From positions 806,001-870,000 of the forward strand of contig NZ_CP163528.1 in assembly GCF_041081105.1 (NCBI RefSeq): a stretch of DNA of 64,000 nt, given 5' to 3'. The notes beneath the pieces were generated by a model. That model had not been told where the DNA came from. It did not search any database and saw only the letters and a list, made by a program, of their open reading frames with translations. The stretch is from Promicromonospora sp. Populi (GTDB lineage: Bacteria > Actinomycetota > Actinomycetes > Actinomycetales > Cellulomonadaceae). The position numbers were made by a program, and so were the translations under genes. Positions within the stretch are counted from its first letter, which is position 1, and each line of letters starts with the position of its first letter. Shown here piece after piece: positions 52,483 through 62,344 of the stretch.

Positions 52483-54330
<1,848 letters not shown>

Positions 54331-54454
54331 GTCCGGGAGCGTCACGACGGCCAGTGTGCCAGGGGACTGTGACACGGGCGGCCCGGGCGCTGGGGTTTTG
54401 CACAGCAAAGGCAAGGAAAGAACCCTCTCCCTGCCACTATCAATCTATAGCGCA

Positions 54455-54481
54455 CAGGGGGTCTTGCGGCAAGGCCCCCTG
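54455..54481. promoter_or_regulatory. Rifamycin-associated element (RAE)-like palindrome
   Basis: A 27-bp palindrome centred on CTTGCGGCAAGG with long G and C flanks (one T-G mismatch in 13 pairs). It matches the remembered RAE consensus (GGGG-CTTGC-GGCAAG-CCCC form) that precedes rifamycin-inducible resistance genes in actinomycetes. It lies 55 bases before the HelR start codon, downstream of a possible -10 (TATAGC, 54446-54451). Confidence 0.8.
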
Positions 54482-54536
54482 CGTATCGCAGAATCGTCGG
54501 CCGGAGCTCCCGACCGACGGAATCGAGTGGTGCCGA

Positions 54537-56972
54537 ATGACCAGTCCTGACCTGAAGAGCCTGTCCACTGCTACCTCCGAGTCGACCGCCGTGTTCGACC
54601 TTCCAGGCCGGCTCGCCGCCAAGGCCGACCCCACGCTGACCGCCGCCGACGAGCGGCACTTCGCGGACATCGCCACCACCCTCGAGCAGTCGATCGCCGA
54701 CCTCACAGAGCGTCTCGACGCCGCGCGCAGGCTGCCCGCGACCATGGGGCAGGCGGCGGTGGAGCGGGACCAGGAGGTCCACCGGCTGACCTCGCGCCTG
54801 CGCACCATGCGCCGCTTCGGCGTGGACCTGTGCCTCGGGCGCATGATCAGCGTCGAGGCGGGCATCGGGCCCGTATACGTCGGGCGCCTCGGCCTCACCG
54901 ACAGCGCGGGGCGCCGGCTGCTGATCGACTGGCGGTCCCCGGCGGCGGAACCGTTCTTCGGCGCTACGCACGCCGACCCGATGGGGCTGGCGAGCCGCCG
55001 CCGCTACCGCTGGACCCGCGGCCGGGTCACCGACTTCTGGGACGAGGTGTTCACCCCGGACCTCCTGGGCTCCGGTGCCCAGGACGGCGCTGAAGGCCCC
55101 AGCGGCTCCGCGGCCTACGCCGCCCTCGACGACCAGTCGGCGTTCATCGCGAGCCTGGGTGGTGAGCGGTCGGACCGGATGCGCGACGTGCTCGGCACCA
55201 TCCAGGCCGACCAGGACGCCATCATCCGCGCGGGCTCCCGCGGCGCACTTGTCGTCGACGGCGGTCCGGGCACCGGCAAGACCGTCGTCGCGCTGCACCG
55301 GACCGCCTACCTGCTGTACTCGGACCCGCGCCTCGGGCACCGGCGGGGCGGCGTGCTGTTCGTCGGCCCGCACCAGCCGTACCTGGCGTACGTCTCGGAC
55401 GTGCTGCCCAGCCTCGGCGAGGAGGGGGTGCAGACGTGCACCGTGCGTGACCTCGTCCCCGAGGGGCGGACGGCGCCCGCCGAGCGCGACCCGGAGGTCG
55501 CCCGGCTGAAGGCGGACGCCCGGATGGTGGCCGCGATCGAGCCGGCCGTCCGGCTCTACGAGACTCCGCCGAAGGAGGGAATGGCTGTCGCCGCGCCCTG
55601 GGGCGACGTCTGGGTCAGCACAGCGGACTGGGCCGAGGCGTTCGGGGTCGTCGAGGCCGGCACGGCGCACAACGAGGCCCGGGACCAGGTCTGGGCGGCG
55701 CTGCTGACGATCCTGACGGACAAGGTCAAGGCTGACGACGGGGACGGGGACGGGAGCGACGACGAGGGCGGATGGTCCGAGGACCGCTGGTCCGAGGACG
55801 GCGCCGAGCCCTCGGACGATCTGCCCGCCGACTGGCGGGACTGGACCGAGGACCGGTTAGAGGACCAGTTCGATGCCTACGGGCAGCAGGAGGTCGATCC
55901 GACCGCTCCGGTCCGGGCAGCGCTGGCGGGCAACCGGGACCTCGCGCGCGCCTTCGACCGGGCGTGGCCCCTGCTGGAGCCGATGGACATCGTCGGCGAC
56001 CTGTGGGAGGTGCCCGCCTACCTGCGGATGTGCGCCCCCTGGCTGGAGCCCGACGCCGCGGCGCGGCTCCGGCGGGACGAGCCGAAAGCCTGGACGGGGT
56101 CCGACCTGCCGATCCTGGACGCGGCCCGACGGCGGATCGGTGACCCGGAGGCCTCGCGCCGCCGTCGTCGAGCGGAGGCCGCGGCCGCCGCCGAGCGGGC
56201 CCGGATGGCCGACGTCGTGGACGACCTGATCGCCACCGACGACTCCGACATGGGCGTGATGCAGATGCTGCACGGCCAGGACCTGCGCGAGGCCCTGCTC
56301 GACGGCGCCGCCGTGCCGGCGACCGCGGACCCAGACCTGCTCGCCGGGCCGTTCGCGCACATCGTCGTCGACGAGGCCCAGGAGCTGACCGACGCGGAGT
56401 GGCAGATGCTGCTGGCGCGCTGCCCGTCCCGCAGCCTGACGGTGGTGGGCGACCGCGCCCAGGCCCGGCACGGCTTCGCCGAGTCGTGGACCGAGCGCCT
56501 GGGGAGGGTCGGCCTGGGCCGGATCGAGACGATGTCCCTGGGCATCAACTACCGGACGCCCGCAGAGATCATGGCTGAGGCCGAACCGGTCATCCGCGCC
56601 GCGCTCCCGGACGCCAACGTGCCGACGTCGGTGCGCAGCAGCGGTTTCCCGGTGCTGCACGGCGCCGCCGCACAGCTCGGCCCGATCCTGGAGGACTGGC
56701 TCGCCGAGCACACCGACGGGACGGCGTGCGTCATCAGCACCCGGGACGACCTGGCGATCGGTGCCACGCCCCGCGTGCGGTTGCTCACCCCGGAGCTGTC
56801 GAAGGGGCTCGAGTTCGACCTGGTTGTGCTCGTGGACCCGGAGTCATTCGGCGCGGACAAGGGCGCGGGCGACCAGGGAACGGGCAGGGGAGTGGGGATC
56901 GAGCGGGCGGTCGACCGCTACGTCGCGATGACCCGGGCGACCCAGCGCCTCGTCATCCTCACGACCGTGTAA
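54537..56972 (+). CDS. helR: HelR-type RNA polymerase recycling/rifamycin-resistance ATPase (HelD family)
   Basis: 811 residues from the ATG at 54537. The N-terminal antiparallel coiled-coil region (about 20-95) would enter the RNA polymerase secondary channel. The superfamily 1 ATPase halves carry Walker A GGPGTGKT (242-249), Walker B DEAQELTDAEW (near 611), GINYRTP and a closing AMTRATQRLVIL motif. Between the halves is a strongly acidic insert (about 399-428, Asp/Glu/Gly/Ser-rich), where HelD/HelR proteins put a loop into the primary channel. HelR displaces rifamycins from RNA polymerase. The RAE-like palindrome upstream strongly supports this over other HelD roles. A 13-bp hairpin follows. 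Confidence 0.88.
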   Translation: MTSPDLKSLSTATSESTAVFDLPGRLAAKADPTLTAADERHFADIATTLEQSIADLTERLDAARRLPATMGQAAVERDQEVHRLTSRLRTMRRFGVDLCLGRMISVEAGIGPVYVGRLGLTDSAGRRLLIDWRSPAAEPFFGATHADPMGLASRRRYRWTRGRVTDFWDEVFTPDLLGSGAQDGAEGPSGSAAYAALDDQSAFIASLGGERSDRMRDVLGTIQADQDAIIRAGSRGALVVDGGPGTGKTVVALHRTAYLLYSDPRLGHRRGGVLFVGPHQPYLAYVSDVLPSLGEEGVQTCTVRDLVPEGRTAPAERDPEVARLKADARMVAAIEPAVRLYETPPKEGMAVAAPWGDVWVSTADWAEAFGVVEAGTAHNEARDQVWAALLTILTDKVKADDGDGDGSDDEGGWSEDRWSEDGAEPSDDLPADWRDWTEDRLEDQFDAYGQQEVDPTAPVRAALAGNRDLARAFDRAWPLLEPMDIVGDLWEVPAYLRMCAPWLEPDAAARLRRDEPKAWTGSDLPILDAARRRIGDPEASRRRRRAEAAAAAERARMADVVDDLIATDDSDMGVMQMLHGQDLREALLDGAAVPATADPDLLAGPFAHIVVDEAQELTDAEWQMLLARCPSRSLTVVGDRAQARHGFAESWTERLGRVGLGRIETMSLGINYRTPAEIMAEAEPVIRAALPDANVPTSVRSSGFPVLHGAAAQLGPILEDWLAEHTDGTACVISTRDDLAIGATPRVRLLTPELSKGLEFDLVVLVDPESFGADKGAGDQGTGRGVGIERAVDRYVAMTRATQRLVILTTV

Positions 56973-57114: not shown

Positions 57115-58188
57115 TCAGCCGCGGAGCAGCGGCACCAGCTCCCGTCCCTGCCGCTCGATCTCGGGGAGATACGGGGTGTCGGACAGGACGAAGTGGGTCA
57201 CGCCCAGCCGCTCGTACTTCCTCAAGCCCTCGGCGACCTCCTTCGCCGTCCCGACGAGCCAGGTTGTCCCCGCTCCGCCACCCCCGGCGCGTCCTGGCGC
57301 CGTGTAGAGGATGTCGTCCAGGACGTCGCCTCGTTCCGCGAGGTCGAGCAGTCGTTGCTGCCCGACGGCGGAGCGCTTGCCCCAGCGCCGACCGCCTGGC
57401 TGCTCGTGGTCGGCGCTGGCGGAGAGCTGAGCGACCTTGGCCTCGGCGTCGGCCCACGCCTCCTCCGTCGTGTCCCGCACGAACGTCGTGATGCGCAGGC
57501 CGAACTCCAGGGGCGCGTGCTCGCGCCCGAGCTCCGCCTGCAGGGTGCGCAGACGGTCTATCCGTTCGGCGATGCCGTCCAGCGGCTCGCCCCAGAAGAG
57601 CTGGACGTCCGCCTCGGTGGCGGCGACGCGCTCGGCTGCCGCGGAGGCCCCGCCGAAGTAGAGCCGGGGATGGGCCCGGCCCGGCCGGGCGAGCGGTCGC
57701 AGGTCCAGGGTCGAGTCGGTGACCTGGAAGTGCTCGCCTGCGTAGGTGACCGACTCCTGCGTCCACAGCCGGCGCACGATCTGCAGGAACTCCTTGGTGC
57801 GGGCGTACCGGTGGGCCTGGTCGCCCTCGGCGTCCCCGTACGCGGCGAGGTCGTCCTGCCCCGAGACGATGTTGATCCGCACGCGCCCGCCCGACAGGTG
57901 GTCGAGCGTCGCCGCGGCCGACGCCAGGTGCGCCGGCCGCCAGTACCCCGGCCGGACCGCGATGAGCGGCTCGAACGTCGTGGTCCGCGCGGCCAGGGCG
58001 GTGGCCACGGTGAACGTGTCCGGCCGGCCCCAGCTTGTGCCGAGCAGGGCGCCGTCCCAGCCGTGCTCCTCCAGCCGGGTGGCGTGCTCGGTCAGCGTGT
58101 CGAGGCTGTTGTGACCCGCCGCGGCGTCGTCCCCGCGGTGGCCGGGGTGGGTCTGGTTGGGGATGTACCAGAGGATGTCGTCGGCCAT
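57115..58188 (-). CDS. ssuD: FMNH2-dependent alkanesulfonate monooxygenase-like protein
   Basis: 357 residues from the ATG at 58188 (GGGAG 7 nt upstream). Bacterial luciferase-like TIM barrel. SsuD-like segments: ILWYIPNQTHPGHRG, LAARTTTFEPLIAVRPGYWR, AATLDHLSGGRVRINIVSGQ, LYFGGASAAAERVAA. SsuD takes reduced flavin and oxygen to release sulfite from alkanesulfonates in the cytoplasm. It is the last gene of an operon with SsuABC-like genes; it starts 1 base after the stop of the second monooxygenase. A related sulfone monooxygenase activity is possible. Confidence 0.88.
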   Translation of the reverse strand: MADDILWYIPNQTHPGHRGDDAAAGHNSLDTLTEHATRLEEHGWDGALLGTSWGRPDTFTVATALAARTTTFEPLIAVRPGYWRPAHLASAAATLDHLSGGRVRINIVSGQDDLAAYGDAEGDQAHRYARTKEFLQIVRRLWTQESVTYAGEHFQVTDSTLDLRPLARPGRAHPRLYFGGASAAAERVAATEADVQLFWGEPLDGIAERIDRLRTLQAELGREHAPLEFGLRITTFVRDTTEEAWADAEAKVAQLSASADHEQPGGRRWGKRSAVGQQRLLDLAERGDVLDDILYTAPGRAGGGGAGTTWLVGTAKEVAEGLRKYERLGVTHFVLSDTPYLPEIERQGRELVPLLRG

Positions 58189-58189
58189 G

Positions 58190-59569
58190 TCAGGCTCCCA
58201 CCGCGGTCGTCGTGTACTCAGCAGGTGTGTGCCGCGCCGTCGTGTACTGGTTCGCCGGCCGGGCCAGGCCGTAGTGGTCACGCAGGGTGGTGCCCTCGTA
58301 GTCGTGCCGGAACAGCCCGCGGTCCCGGAGGATCGGGAGCACGTGCGTGGTGAACTGCTCCAGCCCGGACGGCAGCGCGGCGGGCATGATGTTGAAGCCG
58401 TCGGCCGCCTCGGCGTCGTACCACTCCTGGAGCGCGTCGGCTACCTGCTCCGGGGTGCCCGCGAAGGTGCGGTGCCCACGCCCTCCGCCGAGCCGGCCGA
58501 TGAGCTGCCGGACCGTCAGCCGTTCCCGCCGCGCCAGCTCCACGATGAGTGTGTAGCGGCTCTTCGCTCCCTCGATCTGGTCCTCGTCGGGCAGGTCGTC
58601 CGGCAGCTCGCGGTCCAGCGGCAGGTCCTCCGGATCGAGCCGCAGCGTGCGGGCGAGCTGGCGCTGCGCGTACTCGGGCTGGATGAGCTCGTCGAGCTCA
58701 CGCTCCTTCTCCTGAGCCTCGGCCGCGGTCGCGCCGATCACCGGCACGATTCCCGGCAGGATGCGCACGCTGTCCGCGTCCCGCCCGACGGCCACGGCTC
58801 GCGCCTTGAGGTCCCGGTAGAACACCTGGGCGTCGGCGAGCGTCTGGTGTGCGGTGAACACTGCCTCGGCGTACCGGGCCGCCAGGCCCCTGCCGTCCTC
58901 GGACGAACCGGCCTGCACGATCAGCGGCCGCCCCTGCGGCGACCGGGGCACGTTGAGCGCCCCCGCTACCGAGAAGTGCTGCCCCACGTGCTGCGGCGGG
59001 TGGACCTTGGCGGCGTCCGCCCAGACGCCCGAGGCCTTGTCGGCGACTATCGCGTCGTCCTCCCACGAGTCCCAGAGCTTGACCGCGACGTCGAGAAACT
59101 CCGCCGCCCGCTCGTAGCGCACGGCGTGCGCGGGCTGGTCGTCCAGGCCGAAGTTCCGGGCGACGTCCGGGCCCGCCGTCGTCACCACGTTCCAGCCGGC
59201 ACGGCCCGCCGAGACGTGGTCGATCGAGGCGAACCGCCGGGCCAGGTTGTACGGGGAGTTGTAGGTGGTCGACGCCGTGGCGATGAGCCCGATCCGCTCG
59301 GTGACCGCCGCGATGGCCGTGAGCACGATGAGCGGGTCGAGGGTGCCCGCGGGCCGTCGTCCGACGTCGCCGAAGAGGCCCGGGCTGTCCGCGAAGAAGA
59401 TGGAGTCGAGCCTGCCCGCCTCGGCGATCTGCGCCAGGCGGCGCAGGTGGGCGATGTCGTGGCCGGTGGCGTCCGGGCCGCTCTCCGGCAGCCGCCAGGA
59501 CGCCTCGTGGTGGCCGCTGCTCATGAGGAACGCGTTGAGGTTGAGCTTTCCGGGACGGTGGTTGGTCAT
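58190..59569 (-). CDS. NtaA/SnaA/DszA-family FMNH2-dependent monooxygenase
   Basis: 459 residues from the ATG at 59569, with GGAAGGAC 6 nt upstream; the 4-base overlap with the ABC ATPase gene marks coupling. Family segments: KLNLNAFLMSSGHHEASWRL, FFADSPGLFGD, TASTTYNSPYNLARRFASID, SAGRAGWNVVTT, and QGRPLIVQAGSSEDGR. Relatives act on nitrilotriacetate, dibenzothiophene sulfone and other sulfur compounds. In this operon it probably desulfurises a second class of organosulfur compound than the SsuD-like enzyme. Confidence 0.9.
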   Translation of the reverse strand: MTNHRPGKLNLNAFLMSSGHHEASWRLPESGPDATGHDIAHLRRLAQIAEAGRLDSIFFADSPGLFGDVGRRPAGTLDPLIVLTAIAAVTERIGLIATASTTYNSPYNLARRFASIDHVSAGRAGWNVVTTAGPDVARNFGLDDQPAHAVRYERAAEFLDVAVKLWDSWEDDAIVADKASGVWADAAKVHPPQHVGQHFSVAGALNVPRSPQGRPLIVQAGSSEDGRGLAARYAEAVFTAHQTLADAQVFYRDLKARAVAVGRDADSVRILPGIVPVIGATAAEAQEKERELDELIQPEYAQRQLARTLRLDPEDLPLDRELPDDLPDEDQIEGAKSRYTLIVELARRERLTVRQLIGRLGGGRGHRTFAGTPEQVADALQEWYDAEAADGFNIMPAALPSGLEQFTTHVLPILRDRGLFRHDYEGTTLRDHYGLARPANQYTTARHTPAEYTTTAVGA

Positions 59570-60381
59570 GGGGTGTCCTTCCGGTCCAGGCCGAGCGCGC
59601 CGAGCAGCTCGGCACGCAGCGTGCGGTGCGGGTCGTGCCCGACGGCGTCGTGCGTGACGCCGGATGGGTTGCCGGGCGGGGTACGGCGCTCGAGCACGAT
59701 GCGCCCCGCGTCCAGGACGACCACCCGGTCGGCCAGCACTATCGCTTCGTCCACGTCGTGGGTGACCATCAGGACGGTCGGGCGGTGGCGCCGCAGCAGG
59801 TCGCGCAGCAGGTCGTGCATCCGCAGCCGGGTCAGCGCGTCGAGCGCGCCGAACGGCTCGTCGGCCAGCAGCAGCTCGGGGCTGCGGGCGAGCGACCGGG
59901 CCAGCGACACCCGCTGCTGCTCGCCGCCCGAGAGCTCGTTCGGCCAGGCGCGCTCGCGCCCGGCGAGCCCTACCTCGGCCAGCGCCGCGCGGCCGGCGTC
60001 GCGTGCCTGGGCCGGTGCGGCGTCGTGGCCCAGCACTACGTTGTCCAGCACGCGCGCCCAAGGCAGCAGCCGGGAGTCCTGGAACACCACCGACACGTTG
60101 CGCGGCACCTGGATCCGCCCGGAGCCCGTCACGTCGTGGTCCAGGCCGGCGAGCGCTCGCAGCAGCGTGCTCTTGCCGGACCCGGACCGCCCGAGGATCG
60201 CGACGAACTCGCCGTCGGCGATCTCCAGGTCGAGGCCCTTGAGCACCCCGGCCGGCGTCCCGTAGGTCCGCACCAGGTCCCGTACGACGACGGCGGGGCG
60301 GGCGGGACCGCCGTCGTCGTGCCGCCGTGCGGCGCTCGCGGTCGGTCCTGTCTGGGTCAGTCCTCCAGCGTGCGTCGCCAT
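59566..60381 (-). CDS. ssuB: Sulfonate-type ABC transporter ATP-binding protein (SsuB-like)
   Basis: 271 residues from the ATG at 60381 (AAAGGC upstream), overlapping the permease gene by 25 bases. Walker A LGRSGSGKSTLL, Q-loop FQDSRLLPW, signature NELSGGEQQRVSLARSLARS, Walker B LLLADEPFGALDAL and switch MVTHDVDEAI are complete. The FQDSRLLPW form is typical of nitrate/sulfonate/taurine transporters. It drives uptake by the permease and binding protein encoded upstream. Confidence 0.94.
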   Translation of the reverse strand: MATHAGGLTQTGPTASAARRHDDGGPARPAVVVRDLVRTYGTPAGVLKGLDLEIADGEFVAILGRSGSGKSTLLRALAGLDHDVTGSGRIQVPRNVSVVFQDSRLLPWARVLDNVVLGHDAAPAQARDAGRAALAEVGLAGRERAWPNELSGGEQQRVSLARSLARSPELLLADEPFGALDALTRLRMHDLLRDLLRRHRPTVLMVTHDVDEAIVLADRVVVLDAGRIVLERRTPPGNPSGVTHDAVGHDPHRTLRAELLGALGLDRKDTP

Positions 60382-61211
60382 GACAGTGCCTTTCTCTGCA
60401 GCAGGCGGACGGACCAGTCGGCGGTGAAGCCGAGGACGCCGTAGACGACGAGGCCGACGAGGATGACCTCCGTCTGCCCGTAGGTGCGCGCGAGCTCCAT
60501 CATGTAGCCGATCCCGGCGGTGCCGTTGACCTGCTCGACGACGACGAGCGCGAGCAGCGAGCCGGTCACCGCGAAGCGCAGGCCCAGCAGGAAACCGGGC
60601 AGTGCACCCGGCAGCACCACACGGGTGACGAACTGGTGCCGACCCAGCCGTAACGTCTCGGCGAGCTCGACGTACCGCTTGTCGATCGAGCGCAGCCCGT
60701 TGTGCGTGTGGAGGTAGATCGGGATGAAGACGCCCAGCGCGATGGTGATGACCTTCATCTCCTCGTCGATCCCGAACCACAGGATGAGCAGCGGCAGGAG
60801 TGCCAGGTTGGGGATCGCGCGCTTGACCTGGATCGGTCCGTCCAGCAGCGCGTCGCCGAGCCGGCTCAGGCCGGAGGCCAGCGCGAGGGCGACACCCGCC
60901 GCGACGCCGAAGGTGAGCCCGAGAGCGGCGCGGGTCAGCGAGACCCAGAGGTGGCCGGGCAGGTCGCCGTCCACCGTGAGCTCGACGCCGGTGGTCAGCA
61001 CCGTCCACGGCGGGGTGAGGACGCGCGGGTCGATCAGCCCGGTGGCCGATCCCGCGGCCCAGATCGCCACGAGCAGGCCGATGCCGAGGCCGGCGGCCAG
61101 GGGGAGCGGTTTGCCCAGGCCGAGCCGACGGGTCGTGGGTCGCACGTCGGCAGCGCTGGTGACCCGCTCCGGGGCAGCCGTCGTCGCCACCTCCTGGGCG
61201 ACGGCGGTCAC
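60357..61211 (-). CDS. ssuC: Sulfonate-type ABC transporter permease (SsuC-like)
   Basis: 284 residues from the GTG at 61211 (GTGA overlap with the binding-protein stop). Five to six hydrophobic segments from LPLAAGLGIGLLVAIWAAGS onward. The EAA loop reads YVELAETLRLGRHQFVTRVVLPGALPG, cut here as VELAETLRLGRHQFVTRVVL; the WFGIDEEMKV segment is typical of SsuC/TauC permeases. The C-terminus ends in LQRKALSWRRTLED. Confidence 0.94.
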   Translation of the reverse strand: MTAVAQEVATTAAPERVTSAADVRPTTRRLGLGKPLPLAAGLGIGLLVAIWAAGSATGLIDPRVLTPPWTVLTTGVELTVDGDLPGHLWVSLTRAALGLTFGVAAGVALALASGLSRLGDALLDGPIQVKRAIPNLALLPLLILWFGIDEEMKVITIALGVFIPIYLHTHNGLRSIDKRYVELAETLRLGRHQFVTRVVLPGALPGFLLGLRFAVTGSLLALVVVEQVNGTAGIGYMMELARTYGQTEVILVGLVVYGVLGFTADWSVRLLQRKALSWRRTLED

Positions 61212-62344
61212 GAGGTGCTCCAGGCCTGCTCGGCTGCGTCGCCGGCGATCGGGCCGAACCGCTCGTCGAAGAGGTCCGCGGCCTGCAGCACGGGCCGGTC
61301 GAGCTCGGCGGCGAGGAGGTCGACGGTCTCCTGCGTGCGTTCGATCCCGTCGGTGAGGTCCGAGGGGATCTCGGGCCGGGCGGCCGTGTCGATGAGGTAC
61401 TGCGCGTCCTGCTCCGACAGCCCCTGGTCCTCGATGTAGTACCCGGCCTTCCAGATCTCCGGGTTCTCGTAGATCCAAACCCGGGCCTGCGCCCACGCGG
61501 CGACGTACTGGCGCAGCGCGGCCGCCTTGGCCGGGTCCTGCACCACGGAGGTCGGGCCGTAGAGGTGGCTGGGGTCGTCCCGCAGGCCGTGCCGGAGCGA
61601 CGTCGCGCCGTCGGCCGCGTACGAGTCGAGGTACCGCACCAGCGCGACACCGCCGACGGGGGCGACGTCGATCTCGCCCGCGGCGAGCGCCGTCGGGTAG
61701 ACATCGCCGGTGGAGGGCAGCTCGATCAGCTCGACGTCGTCCTGCGTGAGCCCCGCTGCCTCCAGCGCCTTCAGGACGAGCGCTCCCTGCGCCTGGCCGG
61801 GGCTGAACGCGATCCTCTTGCCGCGCAGGTCGGACAGGTCGTCCAGCTCGATGCCGGGCGCGCCCGCGAGCTCGTAGACCGGGCGCTCCTGCCAGTCCTG
61901 CCGGTACTGGGAGGCGTAGATCTGCACGCCGAGTCCGGTCCAGGTGGCGTGGATCGCCGGGATCTCGGCGACCGCACCGATGTCCAGGGCGTCCGCGTTG
62001 AACGCCTCGATGGTCTGCGGGCCGCCGGAGATGTTGGCCCACTCGATCTCGAAGTCGAAGTCCGAGTCGATCTCGTCGCCGGCGAGCTCGAACGCCTTCT
62101 GGGTGGTCGGGTCACCGATCACCAGAGTTGTGCCGGCCGGGACCTCGGTGGGCAGGGCGGCATCAAGGGCGAGCCCGCCACCCTCCTCGGCCTGAGCACC
62201 GGCGGCGCAGCCGGAGGCGAGCAGTACGACGGCCGCGGCGGTCGCGGCGGCTGCGAGTGCCTTGGCCGGCCGTGCCTTGGCCGGTCGAGGCTTGGTTGGT
62301 TGAGTCTTGGTTCGTCGAGTGCTGGAGGGTGTGCTGGTGGGCAT
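61208..62344 (-). CDS. ssuA: Aliphatic sulfonate ABC transporter substrate-binding lipoprotein (SsuA-like)
   Basis: 378 residues. A basic lead of about 27 residues with a KPRPAK/ARPAKA repeat precedes the hydrophobic core and the lipobox LASGC (Cys46). The mature part is a SsuA/TauA-like protein (LVIGDPTTQKAFELAGDEI, ADALDIGAVAEIPAIHATWT, IAFSPGQAQGALVLKALEAA). It should bind alkanesulfonates outside the membrane. It is the first structural gene after the Cys-rich leader ORF at 62690, from which it is separated by 229 bases. Confidence 0.92.
   Translation of the reverse strand: MPTSTPSSTRRTKTQPTKPRPAKARPAKALAAAATAAAVVLLASGCAAGAQAEEGGGLALDAALPTEVPAGTTLVIGDPTTQKAFELAGDEIDSDFDFEIEWANISGGPQTIEAFNADALDIGAVAEIPAIHATWTGLGVQIYASQYRQDWQERPVYELAGAPGIELDDLSDLRGKRIAFSPGQAQGALVLKALEAAGLTQDDVELIELPSTGDVYPTALAAGEIDVAPVGGVALVRYLDSYAADGATSLRHGLRDDPSHLYGPTSVVQDPAKAAALRQYVAAWAQARVWIYENPEIWKAGYYIEDQGLSEQDAQYLIDTAARPEIPSDLTDGIERTQETVDLLAAELDRPVLQAADLFDERFGPIAGDAAEQAWSTS

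Follow-up and report, generated by a model that had tools for sequence, protein, structure and literature searches.

A HelR gene behind a conserved RAE module in a Promicromonospora genome whose RpoB carries Asn531

Introduction

Does a HelD-like ATPase gene that stands behind an inverted repeat in Promicromonospora sp. Populi belong to an inducible rifamycin defence, and what could such a defence contribute in a cell whose only detected RpoB has asparagine at position 531? The gene lies in a 64-kb window (the whole stretch of DNA analysed, 64,000 bases). In the relatives that have been studied, according to passages of PMC10719064 and PMC11464796, rifamycins induce the system, and the protein enters RNA polymerase through two channels, disturbs the rifamycin pocket with its PCh loop and brings about ATP-driven release. 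Arguing from these relatives as regards induction, eviction and protection, we think it quite likely that helR is here controlled by a complete promoter module built around a rifamycin-associated element (RAE), and that its product would evict rifamycin so that the polymerase can be reused. The locus gives a way into two questions: by what means the RAE is read, and for what reason HelR and Asn531 so rarely occur together.

The protein belongs to the HelR family

The gene (54537..56972, + strand) encodes a protein of 811 residues that matches the NCBIfam model NF041254 (motor_HelR), a family of RNA polymerase protection/recycling ATPases, with 1183 bits (cut-off 750); against the mycobacterial HelR and HelD models (NF041258 and NF041465) it reaches no more than 396 and 367 bits, far short of their cut-offs (1100 and 1051). 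The proposal of a preliminary description, made from sequence, that this is a HelD-family ATPase of HelR type is thus borne out, and, as far as model scores can tell, the protein does not group with HelD proteins that confer no protection, since it scores over the HelR cut-off and far under those for HelD. The nearest protein is P0002 of a Promicromonospora sp. (79% over aligned columns), and the nearest solved structure is that of Mycobacterium smegmatis HelD (best Foldseek match, E 2.8e-45, with about 31% of residues identical when the structures are aligned). Further HelD-like loci of the genome all fall below the HelR cut-off. Among known systems, the Streptomyces HelR proteins share the curated family, 60–65% identity (to named loci) and the PCh loop; for SVEN_6029 of S. 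venezuelae, the RAE and the role of HelR are described in PMC10719064 and PMC8655204. M. abscessus HelR and M. smegmatis HelD share the class II fold, the PCh loop and a 5' RAE (PMC10719064), but fall under the other curated models, NF041258 and NF041465.

Class II HelD/HelR proteins are recognized by a DWR[A/S]P motif without an extra residue, a Walker ATPase and an acidic-tipped PCh loop, the last being absent from classes I and III. We find DWRSP, a motif of the type described in PMC10719064, in the N-terminal (secondary channel) domain (aa 131–135; 54927..54941, +) without the additional residue of class III, Walker A as GGPGTGKT (aa 242–249; 55260..55283, +), VDEAQEL of Walker B type (aa 611–617; 56367..56387, +) and an acidic PCh tip, whose residue-by-residue match is uncertain. 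The catalytic residues are intact, and the protein deviates at 6 of the 308 conserved columns, which puts it at rank 38 among 177 rows (median 3) and equals the count for P0002; decay of HelR in the Asn531 background, for which we saw no strong sign, is accordingly not supported. Histidine 579, beside the PCh tip, was considered as a unique feature and dropped, being present in 12 of the 177 rows.

An acidic insert aligned to the CO tip

Between V397, which directly follows the conserved D395-K396, and the conserved R460 the protein carries an acidic, tryptophan-rich insert of 62 residues (aa 398–459; 55728..55913, +) that occupies the turn of the CO tip, contains 16 Asp, 7 Glu and 4 Trp, and has EDQFDAYG near its end; the median length at this place is 10 residues (range 7–68 in 177 aligned rows). 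The preliminary description had taken such an insert to be the loop that reaches the rifamycin pocket. The insert exists, is acidic and stands, in sequence, between the two ATPase halves, but the profile alignment to M. smegmatis HelD (residues 483–486, with E484/D485) sets the tip of the PCh loop elsewhere, 109 residues beyond the end of the insert, in a DDSD of ordinary composition at about aa 568–571 (56238..56249, +); MAFFT sets the gap near this tip differently, so that the equivalence of single residues is uncertain, and the region is partly of low confidence in the predicted structure. Moreover, the insert follows a helix aligned to the CO-tip helix of M. smegmatis HelD that holds Tyr347, and its length varies between proteins across the range given above while the PCh tip region is kept. 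We therefore regard a role of the insert as the rifamycin-evicting loop as scarcely credible; considering the alignment to the CO-tip helix and the placement of the PCh tip, it is, by alignment, an extension of the clamp-opening (CO) tip.

The insert stands in place of the M. smegmatis HelD segment with Trp361 and His368, two of the residues which, together with D310, W322 and Y347, make up the published sigma-A interface mutant of that protein (PMC11464796); M. smegmatis HelD differs in being about 38 residues shorter at this place, and it is not acidic there. An AlphaFold model from 110 sequences (mean pLDDT 75.7), which supersedes an earlier one from 31 sequences (pLDDT 63.2), has a helix at 378–402 and resumes order from 457, with pLDDT below 50 at 406–423 and in parts of 436–452 and about 90 or more in the surrounding CO domain. 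The model is thus of low confidence in the insert itself; judged by position, the insert with its FDAYG motif would most likely point towards sigma-A and the clamp and away from the drug pocket, and sigma-A or the clamp as the partner of FDAYG would be our guess. The motif (aa 445–449; 55869..55883, +) occurs in 28 of the 177 rows, nine of which were added in the knowledge that they contain it (19/168 without those), and changed about five times on a FastTree tree. In none of the 36 named Streptomyces loci was it present, so that the 62-residue acidic insert with FDAYG sets the present protein apart from the Streptomyces HelR proteins. The CO-tip insert marks a site at which HelR proteins differ in possible sigma factor contact.

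A longer, oriented module centred on the RAE

Fifty-five bases 5' of the ATG at 54537 ends an imperfect palindrome of 27 bp, CAGGGGGTCTTGCGGCAAGGCCCCCTG (54455..54481, no strand assigned), in which 24 of the 27 bases are identical to its own reverse complement, the mismatches being the middle base and one pair. It holds the RAE core GGGTCTTGCGGCAAGGCCC (54459..54477, +, oriented towards helR), a 19-bp palindrome whose form, seen in 27 of the 131 intact cores at helR loci, is among the two most frequent. This core is the single exact match to the RAE pattern GGGNCTTGCNNCAAGNCCC in the 5,224,924-base genome, where the next-nearest place, a single one, has 2 mismatches. The suspected likeness of the palindrome to an RAE has thus held, the element being unique in the genome and matching the RAE of relatives, and like the known RAE it is a 19-bp palindrome before a rifamycin-resistance gene.

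What distinguishes it from the RAE as known is that it lies here in the middle of an extended, oriented module, with a fixed TATAGC block upstream and a fixed CAGAAT block downstream. When 122 non-redundant helR upstream regions were aligned, anchored on the RAE, conservation extended from about -28 to +45 over some 75 bp, in the order CYTGCCACTYTCAAC, TATAGC at -12 to -7, the RAE at 1–19 and CAGAAT at 31–36. The bases of TATAGC are conserved in 98, 96, 92, 90, 85 and 91% of the 122 rows, and A2 and T6 of CAGAAT each in 100%. At the locus, the upstream block CCTGCCACTATCAATCTATAGCGCA (54430..54454, +; RAE-relative -28 to -4), conserved in the 122 helR regions, includes TATAGC at 54446–54451, and CAGAAT lies at 54489..54494 (+). 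A candidate -35 hexamer, TTGCGG (54464–54469), lies inside the RAE at a spacing of 19 from CAGAAT, and this arrangement is conserved; CAGAAT is a putative, and likely, -10 box of a promoter whose -35 would lie in the RAE. This fits the second of the two promoters described around the mycobacterial RAE, the one whose -35 falls within the element (PMC10719064). TATAGC may be part of a first promoter, but its sixth base is C and its position is nearer to the RAE than would be implied by the first mycobacterial start, about 20 bp 5' of the RAE in the same source.

With the locus's own row left out, a flank matrix scored the locus at 60.4 bits; elsewhere in the window, both strands counted, no place exceeded -1.8, and the flanks scored positive at 50 of 51 further RAE sites. 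The element itself is oriented, as follows from the bias towards G at its middle base (100/122 helR rows and 37/51 other sites) and from pair 4/16, which is complementary in only 18% of the rows. Of the genome's remaining HelD-like loci, the three best are without the module. Given that HelD proteins generally recycle polymerase, one might read the gene as encoding a general HelD recycling factor, preceded by a palindrome that is there by chance or is an unrelated operator or a terminator; with a protein score far above the HelR cut-off and far below that of the HelD_MYCSM model, with the gap between 60.4 and -1.8 bits in the flanks, and with no run of T after the palindrome, we consider this highly improbable. 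The missing T run likewise disposes of a terminator as such, and an RNA hairpin was rejected on account of pair 4/16, for which the column expectation is 17%; pair -2/22 is the only one clearly above column expectation (55% vs 35%, 122 rows).

In the literature searched we came across no account of the complete module, although the original papers (Spanogiannopoulos 2014, Surette 2022, Hurst-Hess 2022) may contain one. The sensor behind the RAE is stated to be an open question in PMC10719064 and PMC12802891. With a conserved, oriented module of about 75 bp common to the sampled classes of RAE genes, there are now defined blocks by which a promoter-based sensor can be told from a regulator.

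RAE modules before helR and other resistance genes

To place the element among its relatives, 169 helR loci were surveyed (63 from the family, 25 from the phylum, 80 from named genomes and the present locus; the collections may overlap), with about 600 bases scanned upstream of each helR. The intact core CTTGCNGCAAG precedes 131 of them and a core with one mismatch a further 12, which makes at least 143/169, a lower bound in that the pattern sites of two loci (L060, L065) lay beyond the scanned stretch; no core was found within that stretch in 26/169. By a similar criterion, 24 of the 36 named Streptomyces helR loci have an RAE and 12 have none. The link between RAE and helR is strong, not universal. 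At three loci (L074, L075 and L077) the RAE lies some 1.4–1.5 kb upstream with another gene between: in these genomes (G472, G468 and G272; upstream stretches L274–L276) the RAE module, the other gene and helR follow one another in the same direction, as an apparent two-gene RAE operon. The intervening gene is Rgt-like in L274 (by NCBIfam) and L276 (judged from its sequence), and its length alone was seen in L275.

The module was found also before rox, arr, rgt-like and rph-like genes. Nine genes from the 51 further RAE sites were named with NCBIfam: three rifampin monooxygenases and one rifampin ADP-ribosyltransferase, all over cut-off; two nearest to Rgt, with 439–504 bits (cut-off 800); two partial reads nearest to rifamycin phosphotransferase, below cut-off; and one monooxygenase (L197) nearest to an unnamed model. 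Among three loci of the mycobacterial HelR model, one (L405) has RAE and module, and the other two had no core with up to one mismatch in the stretch examined. Additionally, a helR derivative of 329 aa (L245) stands behind a good RAE module; by eye, most of the part before the PCh region is missing from it, but the second ATPase half and the region of the PCh tip remain. A link to phages was dropped: two peptide patterns detected no HelR relative in viral contigs, and the three RAE pattern matches there were without the module.

RpoB Asn531 and the distribution of HelR

If the locus works as its relatives do, rifamycin exposure would raise transcription from the RAE module, and HelR would enter RNA polymerase via both channels, the CO domain opening the clamp and the tip of the PCh loop (about aa 568–571) reaching the active site and disturbing the rifamycin pocket; drug and nucleic acid would then leave, and the polymerase would be reused. 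The polymerase concerned is itself unusual. A genome search found one rpoB, whose RRDR has Asn at the position of E. coli Ser531 (E. coli numbering throughout). In E. coli, S531N gave resistance to higher rifampicin concentrations (PMC7073797), and the corresponding S450N of M. branderi is noted as possibly resistant (PMC13246000); by analogy, the sole RpoB of this genome is probably resistant by itself and may be a poor binder of rifampicin. The resistance phenotype that the preliminary description had expected from the gene is thereby weakened, and, with Asn at Ser531, the effect of helR on resistance in this organism may be small. As a member of a known resistance system the protein is well formed; what is unusual is the polymerase beside which it occurs. 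In Nonomuraea sp. ATCC 55076 (helD NOA_42280), RAE-helR likewise occurs beside a rifampicin-resistant RpoB (PMC8655204), but the resistant RpoB is a second copy there, whereas the sole copy has Asn531 here.

Asn531 was found in all 13 sampled genomes of the genus, and HelR was absent, at E 1e-150, from the 12 others. Among 111 genomes of the family, 25 have Asn531, one of them with HelR (the present genome), and 86 have Ser531, 57 of them with HelR. Outside the family (26 genomes, a small and non-random sample), Ser was present in 20/20 genomes with HelR, in which respect the present genome differs from them, and Asn in 3/6 without it. Over all 137 sampled genomes, HelR accompanies Asn531 in 1/28 and Ser531 in 77/109, so that the two coincide here only. 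In the four genera in which both traits vary, HelR occurs in no Asn genome (stratified exact P 3.0e-5; when the Asn genomes are reduced to a single one for each genus, or two for genus g36, P is 5.8e-4); the genus that holds the exception is uninformative in this test, all its members having Asn. On the family tree, Asn531 changed about 4 times and HelR 23 times, and a tree-based pair test of the two within the family had too few independent pairs to be able to reach significance.

These counts bear on a reading to which we give a substantial chance, somewhat short of even: that helR is intact and RAE-controlled but has little effect against rifamycins, the Asn531 polymerase being already resistant, and that HelR is kept either to recycle stalled polymerase or to counter such rifamycins or further inhibitors as can still bind to the Asn531 enzyme, or else was acquired recently and is being lost. 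The occurrence of helR in just one of 13 Asn531 genomes of the genus, the lack of any other coincidence in the sample and the resistance of the E. coli S531N mutant agree with it; the good conservation of RAE module and protein speaks against it. So do five Asn531 genomes without HelR, four of them in this genus, that retain an RAE pattern site before FAD-monooxygenase genes (two named rifampin monooxygenase by NCBIfam, over cut-off, and three judged from sequence), which indicates that not all defence has been lost and that defence genes can persist beside Asn531. The sites in the genus (L251–L254) are RAE modules before the monooxygenase gene, in 4 of the 12 other genomes and without helR; the two proteins of these four that were compared with NCBIfam both exceed the rifampin monooxygenase cut-off. 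An RAE-controlled HelR that evicts rifamycin is the reading we retain as quite likely.

Finally, it is conceivable, although we hold it to be rather unlikely, that RpoB Asn531 and HelR exclude each other across actinobacteria beyond mere redundancy, because the altered pocket spoils or obviates docking of the PCh loop, that this genome is a natural exception with a HelR matched to its Asn531 polymerase, and that the RAE, far from being a simple operator, is the core of an oriented double-promoter module which may be read by RNA polymerase itself, acting as the sensor of rifamycin. With one exception among 137 sampled genomes, the avoidance allows natural enzymes to be used to test how target change trades off against target protection.

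Neighbouring genes

Divergent from helR lies a recQ-type helicase gene (52483–54414), which is present in 13/13 genomes of the genus with variable 5' neighbours; a search at recQ across these 13 genomes yielded no clean empty site, the 5' neighbourhood varying. On the 3' side of helR (57115–62344), the list of open reading frames, read by eye, shows genes for luciferase-type monooxygenases as well as for an ABC transporter and its substrate-binding protein, and the luciferase-type neighbour occurs in 3 of the 13 genomes of the genus, this one included.
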